Shown: piece by piece, positions 43,743 to 58,142 of the stretch | Position numbering within the stretch: the stretch's first letter is position 1 | How the letters are laid out: each line of letters opens with the position of its first letter | Assembly (NCBI GenBank): GCA_030616775.1 | Contig: JAUWWQ010000017.1 | Location: 1 to 64,000 of the forward strand | Direction of reading: 5' to 3' | Origin: Planctomycetota bacterium | GTDB lineage: Bacteria > Planctomycetota > Phycisphaerae > UBA1845 | DNA length: 64,000 nt | Made by a program: the position numbers and the translations under genes | The notes under the pieces: generated by a model | What the model saw: only the letters and a program-made list of their open reading frames with translations | Database searches by the model: none | Told to the model about the DNA's origin: nothing

Positions 43743-44840
43743 ATGGCAGCCACGCTTGGCCGAATCGTCCAGGGTGATTGTATCAAGAAGCTCAAAACGC
43801 TCGACGCAGGATCAGTTGATCTGGTCTTCGCCGATCCGCCCTTCAACATCGGCTACGACTACGACGAGTACGACGACAAGCGGTCCTGTGAGGACTATCT
43901 GGGCTGGTCCAGACGGTGGATCAGTGAAGTCATTCGCGTACTGAAACCCGACGGCACGTTCTGGCTGGCCATCGGGGATGAGTATGCGGCCGAGCTGAAG
44001 GTGATGGCCACGCGCGACCTGGAGTTGACCTGTCGAAGCTGGGTCGTCTGGTATTACACGTTCGGCGTGCACTGCAAGCACAAGTTCACCCGGTCGCACG
44101 CCCACCTCTTCTACTTCGCCAAGGACCCCAAGAAGTTCACCTTCAATACTGACGATATTCGTGTGCCATCAGCCCGTCAGCTCGTCTACGGCGACAAACG
44201 TGCCAACCCCAAAGGCCGCGTCCCCGACGACACCTGGATCATCCGGCCAAACGCCGAAACGTCGAAAAGTCGAAAAGTCGAAACGTCAAAACGTCGAAAC
44301 GACAGGCAAACCGAATCTCCAATCCCCAATCCGCAGTCCGCAATCCGCAATCCGCAATCCCCAATCCCCAATGGCTGGGTTCTTCGACCGCAGGACGTGC
44401 CCGAAGGCTTCACGGCCGACAGCGACACCTGGTACTTCCCGCGGGTCTGCGGCACGTTCAAGGAGCGTGGGGGCTTCCACGGCTGCCAGATGCCCGAGCA
44501 GCTCCTTGGCCGGATCATCAAAGCCTGCTCCAACGAAGGCGATCTCGTCATCGACCCGTTTGCCGGCAGCGGCACGACCCTGGCCGTAGCCAAGAAACTA
44601 GGCCGCAAGTACCTGGGCATCGAAATCTCGAAGCAATACGTAGCCGAGACCCACACCCGCCTGTCCCGCATCAAACCCGGCGATCTCCTCGACGGCGCCG
44701 AAGATCCCCTAACCAGCGTAGCCAACACCGCCAACGGCATCATCCGTACCCCCGACGGGCGGCGCGTAAAAGGAAACCGAGCACGAACTCGAAGCGGGCA
44801 GCCGTGTCGGAAAAGTGAAGATCCGACGCTGTTCAGTTAG
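43743..44840 (+). CDS. DNA N4/N6 methyltransferase with repeat insertions
   Basis: A 365-residue methyltransferase of beta type, with the catalytic DPPF motif near the N-terminus (SVDLVFADPPFNIGYDY) and the SAM-binding motif near the C-terminus (VIDPFAGSGTTLAVAKKLGR). It probably methylates adenine N6 or cytosine N4. Residues 172-212 (NAETSKSRK... to ...SPIPNG) look foreign. They are encoded by octamer and heptamer tandem repeats and lie between WIIRP and WVLRPQDVPEG, where homologs would be continuous. No endonuclease gene is adjacent. GGGAGGAG precedes the ATG. Confidence 0.9.
   Translation: MAATLGRIVQGDCIKKLKTLDAGSVDLVFADPPFNIGYDYDEYDDKRSCEDYLGWSRRWISEVIRVLKPDGTFWLAIGDEYAAELKVMATRDLELTCRSWVVWYYTFGVHCKHKFTRSHAHLFYFAKDPKKFTFNTDDIRVPSARQLVYGDKRANPKGRVPDDTWIIRPNAETSKSRKVETSKRRNDRQTESPIPNPQSAIRNPQSPIPNGWVLRPQDVPEGFTADSDTWYFPRVCGTFKERGGFHGCQMPEQLLGRIIKACSNEGDLVIDPFAGSGTTLAVAKKLGRKYLGIEISKQYVAETHTRLSRIKPGDLLDGAEDPLTSVANTANGIIRTPDGRRVKGNRARTRSGQPCRKSEDPTLFS
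44253..44300. repeat. Octamer tandem repeat inside the methyltransferase gene
   Basis: Six 8-base units of the form GTCGAAAM: GCCGAAAC, GTCGAAAA, GTCGAAAA, GTCGAAAC, GTCAAAAC, GTCGAAAC. They encode basic, serine-rich residues (ETSKSRKVETSKRRN) and keep the frame open. Confidence 0.9.
44319..44374. repeat. Heptamer tandem repeat inside the methyltransferase gene
   Basis: Eight 7-base units of the form SCAATCC: CCAATCC twice, GCAGTCC, GCAATCC three times, CCAATCC, CCAATGG. They encode PNPQSAIRNPQSPIPNG. The reverse complement family (GATTGCG, GATTGGG) recurs at 58049-58090. Confidence 0.9.
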
Positions 44841-56935: not shown

Positions 56936-58054
56936 ATGATTGATCCGCGTATGACCAAGCTGGCTGAGCTGCTGGTCAAGTACTCCACCACGCTGAAGCC
57001 GGGGGACAGAATCCTTATCGAGGCTATTGACATACCCACGGAGATGACCTGCGAGTTGATCCGTGTCGCCCGGGATGCCGGAGCTGAGCCGTTTGTGACC
57101 TTAAAGAGCAACCGCGTCAACCGGGCGCTGTTGCAGCAGTGCTCGGAGTCCCAGCTCAACCTGATTGCCGATGCCGAAGTGCTTCGTATGGGCAAGATGG
57201 ACGCCTATATCGGTATGCGCGGCAACCCCAACATCGCCGAGCTATCGGATGTACCGGAGGAGGGCCACAAGCTCTATCAGAACACCGTCTGGCGCCGGGT
57301 TCATCTGGAGATTCGCGTTCCCAAGACGCGCTGGGTGGTTCTCCGCTGGCCCCACGCCTCGATGGCTCAGCAGGCCAACATGAGCACCGAGAGCTTCGAG
57401 GATTTCTACTTCGACGTATGCACTATGGACTACGCCCGGATGTCCAAGGCCATGGGGCCGCTGGTCGAGCGTATGGAGAAGACCGATCGCGTCCGAATCG
57501 TAGGACCCGGTACCGAGTTGGCGTTCTCGATCAAGGACATCCCCGTTATACCGTGTGATGGCAAGCTCAACATTCCCGACGGCGAGGTCTTCACGGCCCC
57601 GGTGCGGGACAGCGTCAACGGAACGGTGCAGTTCAACGCCCGGACCATTTACCAGGGAATCGTCCACGACGACGTTCGTCTGGTCTTCAGTGAGGGCAAG
57701 GTCGTCGAGGCGACAAGCACTAACACTGAGCACCTTAACAAGGTCCTGGATACCGACGAGGGTGCCCGCTACACCGGCGAGTTTGCCATCGGCCTCAACC
57801 CCTTTATCACCAAACCGATGCTCGACACCCTGTTCGACGAGAAGATCGCCGGGTCCTTCCACTTCACCCCGGGACAGGCCTACGAAGAGGCCGACAACAC
57901 CAATCGCAGCACGATCCATTGGGACCTGGTCTGTATTCAGGAAGCGGCTCACGGCGGCGGAGAAATCTGGTTCGACGGTGAATTAATCCGCAAAGACGGT
58001 TTGTTCGTAGTAGACGACTTAAAGCTACTAAATCCTGAGAACCTTAAGGATTGA
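56936..58054 (+). CDS. M29-family aminopeptidase
   Basis: A 372-residue metalloaminopeptidase of the M29 (thermophilic) family. The metal-binding pattern is complete: NIPDGEVFTAPVRDS (Glu), YTGEFAIGLN (Glu), GSFHFTPGQAYEEADN (His) and STIHWDLV (His, Asp). It removes N-terminal residues from peptides in the cytoplasm. The last codons overlap the start of a heptamer repeat, whose first unit supplies the TGA stop. Confidence 0.93.
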   Translation: MIDPRMTKLAELLVKYSTTLKPGDRILIEAIDIPTEMTCELIRVARDAGAEPFVTLKSNRVNRALLQQCSESQLNLIADAEVLRMGKMDAYIGMRGNPNIAELSDVPEEGHKLYQNTVWRRVHLEIRVPKTRWVVLRWPHASMAQQANMSTESFEDFYFDVCTMDYARMSKAMGPLVERMEKTDRVRIVGPGTELAFSIKDIPVIPCDGKLNIPDGEVFTAPVRDSVNGTVQFNARTIYQGIVHDDVRLVFSEGKVVEATSTNTEHLNKVLDTDEGARYTGEFAIGLNPFITKPMLDTLFDEKIAGSFHFTPGQAYEEADNTNRSTIHWDLVCIQEAAHGGGEIWFDGELIRKDGLFVVDDLKLLNPENLKD

Positions 58055-58142
58055 CGATTGCGGATTGCGGATTGGGGGTTGGGGGTTGGTCGGCGCGGCG
58101 AAAACCCAGTGTCTTGGCACTCGACAATCGACAATCCTAAAG
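58043..58142. repeat. Heptamer array within a large inverted repeat spanning two stop codons
   Basis: Bases 58049-58090 are six heptamers (GATTGAC, GATTGCG twice, GATTGGG, GGTTGGG, GGTTGGT). The right arm (58121-58142) is, as reverse complement, very close to 58043-58064 (shared CCTT-AGGATTG-CGATTG). Both stop codons, of the M29 gene and of the PH-domain gene, lie inside the arms. It could act as a two-way terminator by structure alone. Confidence 0.75.

Follow-up and report, generated by a model that had tools for sequence, protein, structure and literature searches.

Two families of short tandem repeats in a variable loop of a planctomycete DNA methyltransferase

A DNA methyltransferase gene of a Planctomycetota bacterium contains two tandem arrays inside its reading frame, one of octamers and one of heptamers. 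Repeat-driven phase-variable methyltransferases are well known (PMC11868660), and the original prediction, made from a 64,000-nucleotide stretch of DNA (the window), proposed that changes in repeat number could switch this enzyme on and off. The locus thus raises the question of whether the arrays form such a switch or lie in the gene for another reason. The answer reached here, which is held to be likely, is that dispersed 7-8-bp arrays came to lie in a tolerant loop of the methyltransferase, where they turn over within the limits set by the reading frame.

For decades, dispersed heptamer arrays have been known from several phyla with no established way of spreading. Where one loop carries different families in close relatives, with collinear flanks and a record of the reading frame, it becomes directly visible how arrays are gained, lost and replaced. 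The locus also cautions against taking every repeat inside a methyltransferase gene as a sign of phase variation.

The enzyme and the arrays in its loop

The protein is, judged from its sequence, a beta-class N6-adenine-type methyltransferase, and adenine methylation is predicted. Its nearest solved relatives are M.BceJIV, CcrM, M.MboIIA and M.RsrI. The DPPF motif lies N-terminal to FxGSGTT, the fold is like that of CcrM, MboIIA and RsrI, and both motifs are invariant or nearly so across the homologue alignment. The gene was matched in 99 of 100 related genomes and occurs throughout Planctomycetota; its named homologues come from planctomycete or Phycisphaerae metagenome-assembled genomes, except for one record titled only 'bacterium'. 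No obvious restriction partner was seen among the checked genes beside it, and the enzyme looks like an orphan. Comparison of the source genome (G000) with its sister species G002 gave dN/dS values of 0.11 and 0.19, which indicate purifying selection on the methyltransferase in this pair.

Table 1. Features of the methyltransferase locus and of a second repeat site in the window
Feature	Position	Strand	Evidence or remark
Beta-class N6-adenine-type DNA methyltransferase gene, 365 aa	43743..44840	+	Pfam N6_N4_Mtase E=9.4e-59
Variable loop between W165 and W212	44238..44375	+	Linker lengths in homologues, low pLDDT
Octamer array, six units GTCGAAAM	44253..44300	+	Decayed seventh unit at 44245-44252
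Spacer between octamer and heptamer arrays, 18 nt	44301..44318	+	
Heptamer array, eight units CAATCCS (GGATTGS on - strand)	44319..44374	+	Ends in CCAATGG
Second GATTGNN-family heptamer array	58049..58089	+	Overlaps stop codon of + strand ORF
Three GATTGNN-family units	58116..58136	-	Directly after stop codon of convergent - strand ORF

The six octamers and eight heptamers were found again, in frame, by re-reading the sequence and by TRF, which scored the octamer array at 78 (period 8, 88% matches) and the heptamer array at 76 (period 7, 90% matches). The octamer units read, in order, GCCGAAAC GTCGAAAA GTCGAAAA GTCGAAAC GTCAAAAC GTCGAAAC. Both arrays are imperfect: the longest exact repeat stretch is 24 nt at period 7 and 23 nt at period 8, so that exact tracts amount to about three units each. 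At the threshold used, no period-7 or period-8 array appeared in block-shuffled sequence from 456 kb of the source genome. The ORF is open throughout, and the 42 residues counted between WIIRP and WVLRPQD agree with the approximately 40 extra residues noted earlier. No inverted ends were seen at the limits of the loop, both arrays being plain direct repeats. An assembly chimera is unlikely, as the flanks on both sides are collinear with the sister species at 90-92% identity.

The AlphaFold model of the protein has a mean pLDDT of 63, and only its catalytic core is predicted with high confidence. The model is poor throughout residues 140-247. Within them, residues 171-210, which the arrays encode, form blocks of 32-35 pLDDT, the lowest values in the internal part of the protein, consistent with a loop that is probably disordered. 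The octamer part of the loop encodes a Lys/Arg-rich segment, ETSKSRKVETSKRRN. The residues on either side of the loop, T164, W165 and L214-D218, are invariant in the alignment.

The loop among homologues and between sister species

The linker between DTW and LRPQD measures 1 residue in 51 homologues, 11-12 in 10, 17 in 11 and 21-72 in about a dozen, in a set that is biased towards in-frame genes since extraction required both motifs in one frame. All ten linkers of 11-12 residues (e.g., IIRPSPHDDWV) have the WIIRP...W(V/I/L)LRPQD boundary without any repeats, and the duplicated boundary is therefore probably a short protein insertion older than the arrays. An origin of this pair of motifs through the repeats is ruled out by the same ten homologues, which also provide the case, same linker but no repeats, that the original prediction had named as one that would refute it.

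Short-period arrays in the loop are confined to long-loop relatives. Nine of these long-loop homologues were read separately, and all nine proved to be in frame and full-length with a normal C-terminus. Alignment stops at three loci (L065, L067 and L069) were considered as off states and ruled out, each stop falling after a normal C-terminus.

A subgroup of six carries loop arrays of at least four families. The source genome has GTCGAAAC plus CAATCCG, the sister species has a GAATTCA heptamer, G024 has a decayed GNCGAAAC (z 4.9), G040 has GTTTGGAC, which is the octamer in reverse orientation (z 4.3), and G033 has GGGACNNA. The TCATTCG/TAATCCG units of G001 are recognized by eye only and are not significant over the whole loop. 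The encoded composition is unrelated between the sisters, being basic in the source genome and IQNSEFGIQNS in G002. In a tree built without the loop the six array-bearing relatives form one weakly supported group (83/84). Because they group together, if weakly, a single ancestral long loop with later turnover would fit these sequences as well as repeated invasion.

The sister species is about 90% identical to the source genome at the DNA level, and its methyltransferase loop is replaced and 81 nt, or 27 codons, shorter between collinear flanks. Orthologous intergenic arrays of the two species differ by 35 (5x7), 32 (4x8), 14 (2x7) and 16 nt (2x8). The in-gene cases are the methyltransferase, two linkers of a UvrA-like protein and a B12-binding radical-SAM protein. 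Two internal linkers of the UvrA-like protein are occupied by octamer arrays or by repeats of another kind, which are in frame in both species (L104:16614-20000, L105:1-800, contig C36 of the source genome); a 24-nt difference in this gene corresponds to three octamers, and one of the linkers consists of octamers in the sister species and of other, non-octamer sequence in the source genome. The radical-SAM protein contains an in-frame heptamer array (NPQSPIPNLQSPIRF, around position 1501 of L009) of equal length in the sister species. Length differences within genes are thus 81, 24, 3 and 0 nt; all four are multiples of three, compared with 2 of 11 intergenic differences (Fisher p 0.011), in a comparison that comprises four in-gene cases and in which part of the intergenic totals also takes in changes beyond the array proper.

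Dispersed families and their placement

Both repeat types of the methyltransferase recur far from it as 7-8-bp head-to-tail units at many unlinked sites, beside unrelated genes and mostly intergenic. Across the 4.45-Mb source genome, where genome-wide statistics come from a 456-kb sample together with pattern matches, a 19-mer pattern of the heptamer matches at 41 places and one of the octamer at 48, and the reversed patterns match at none. The octamer family is present in 30 of 114 genomes of the order and the heptamer family in 9 of 51 genomes of the family. The GGGACNNA octamer is likewise dispersed, with 34 matches in G002 C1 and 13 in G033, and is nearly absent from the source genome (2 matches) and absent from G001; as judged from these counts, the set of repeat families is sharply different from one sister species to another. 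Matching by exact pattern showed no dispersal of GAATTCN in G002, and GAATTCA was found there at the methyltransferase loop only. For that family, this restriction would fit local growth better than copying.

Outside genes the arrays favour a particular place. Among about 28 arrays other than the in-gene cases, 15 begin 10 nt or less from a sense stop codon, compared with 2.8% of random intergenic positions (binomial p ~1e-16); the count is approximate, as ORFs were called by length only, and strict arrays were inspected. Among the array loci of the source genome (L003-L060), examples of sense-orientation arrays within a few nucleotides of stops are L033, L037, L043, L044, L047, L058, L060, L006, L010 and L021, and several octamer arrays have a TAG stop in or beside the first unit (GTAGAAAC). 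The window itself contains a second site of this kind, where two heptamer arrays form an inverted pair (Table 1). Convergent genes, each with its own array, explain at least this pair.

Explanations weighed and comparison with known systems

In the favoured account the methyltransferase loop would be permissive and probably disordered. Whole arrays may reach new sites as copies of existing arrays, as their shared consensus suggests, and units would then be gained or lost by slippage or unequal recombination, to which the whole-unit differences between orthologous arrays point. Inside genes only variants with a frame-keeping net length would survive. The methyltransferase should then be constitutively active, and the sequence of its loop neutral or nearly neutral and fast-changing. 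Some of the traces expected from copying between sites would also be left if each array had grown independently from a short seed.

A bolder form of dispersal, given an outside chance, is that an unrecognised activity copies 7-8-bp arrays whole to preferred sites, behind stop codons and into protein loops. The methyltransferase loop would then be a recurrent landing site, receiving different families in different lineages.

It is improbable that the arrays are instead kept as a means of adjusting target recognition or DNA binding through loop length or composition, changed by frame-keeping three-unit steps. The loop lies in the poorly modelled stretch that separates the two halves of the catalytic core and is the expected place of the target recognition region; the octamer part of the loop is basic, and arrays occur only in long-loop relatives. 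However, the loop composition is unrelated between the two sister species, and most homologues have no loop while the residues on both sides of it are invariant.

A very small chance is left to the on/off switch, in which slippage at the octamer or heptamer array would alter methylation genome-wide. The arithmetic of the original prediction stands: neither 7 nor 8 is a multiple of three, both arrays are read in frame, and one or two units more or fewer would cause a frameshift, with products of 276-363 aa that lack FAGSGTT, the SAM-binding motif near the C-terminus. At sister arrays elsewhere in the genome, species do differ in unit number. Phase variation of the methyltransferase is in this sense arithmetically possible. 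The switch itself finds no positive support in the comparison between species. The units are imperfect, with exact tracts of some three units in place of a long near-perfect tract, and the reading frame is kept in every long-loop homologue read separately. Purifying selection acts on the gene in both sister species, and in the UvrA-like gene a length difference measures exactly 3x8 nt. Short-linker homologues do without repeats, and the same repeat families recur across the genome at dozens of sites with no relation to one another, next to unrelated genes. The gene resembles the phase-variable Mod methyltransferases (phasevarions) in being an adenine methyltransferase gene that holds a tandem repeat with a unit length not divisible by three. 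It differs from them in its imperfect units and in the genome-wide occurrence of the repeats, and no off state was seen in the nine related species with long loops.

An origin of the arrays on the spot, by replication slippage acting on short seeds and unconnected to the dispersed copies, is highly improbable: slippage generally gives rise to tandem arrays, bacteria have an excess of heptameric arrays (PMC4692102) and GAATTCA is confined to the loop in the sister species, but both consensus units of the source genome are exactly those of genome-wide families, and an independent origin of two unrelated consensuses less than 20 bp apart is improbable.

The favoured account, dispersed arrays turning over in a tolerant loop, has its closest parallels among the G-rich heptamers of Xanthomonas and Nostoc, GGGAATC and GGGGA(C/T)T (PMC4692102). 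These are also dispersed 7-bp units, mostly non-coding, that lie on the sense strand within 50 bp of stop codons and occur in the same gene context with another unit number in sister species; the GGGGATT unit is found among the planctomycete units as well. In contrast, the planctomycete units are mostly GCGGATT or NNCGATT, with broken G-tracts, and are accompanied by a second, 8-bp family and by in-frame arrays inside conserved proteins. G-quadruplexes built from four G-tracts are a mark of the G-rich heptamer type, and in several planctomycete units, GCGGATT, the G-tract is interrupted. The P6b loop of the Nostoc tRNA-Leu intron (PMC4476775) is likewise a variable loop of heptamers in which families, Class I (TDNGATT) and Class II (NNTGAGT), have replaced each other repeatedly. 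It is an RNA stem-loop, however, whereas the planctomycete loop is part of a protein and under frame constraint.

In Geobacter metallireducens (PMC2700814) both unit sizes, hepta- and octanucleotide, occur in one genome, some as inverted pairs, and the GGACCGG heptamer element lies within genes as well as between them. The consensus sequences are unrelated to those described here, and the elements were proposed to bind regulators or to act as regulatory RNAs. In Beggiatoaceae and cyanobacteria, the TAACTGA repeats (PMC4679880) are 7-bp direct repeats, mainly intergenic, with a few in ORFs or over stop codons. They differ in lying mostly just upstream of start codons and, when inside ORFs, at protein ends and not in an internal loop. 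Rickettsia palindromic elements (reviewed in PMC10969869) are dispersed repeats that lie in frame inside unrelated conserved proteins, but they are palindromes of about 150 bp with a conserved peptide, and the methyltransferase site has no terminal palindrome. The literature searched held no account of repeats of this kind from Planctomycetes. To that extent two things appear to be new: the pair of octamer and heptamer families in a planctomycete, and repeat families that turn over within the loop of one conserved enzyme.

Further repeats were seen around some arrays of the source genome. The flanks of the octamer arrays at L043 and L060 contain another heptamer-like family, TCAGTTA/TCAGCCA, the reverse complement of which resembles the TAACTGA repeats of Beggiatoaceae (PMC4679880). 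A separate dispersed element that contains a palindrome, TTTCTCGGCACCTG...GAGGACCGAGAAGGGATTCTCGGTCC, is common to the unrelated loci L047 and L058; the L058 copy is kept in the orthologue of the sister species and the L047 copy is not. A palindrome of the GCGGGCT(A/G)AAGCCCGC type occurs in three different contexts, one of them within a gene: the flank of L014, the flank of L005 and the second linker of the UvrA-like protein (contig C36, about 100600-100820).
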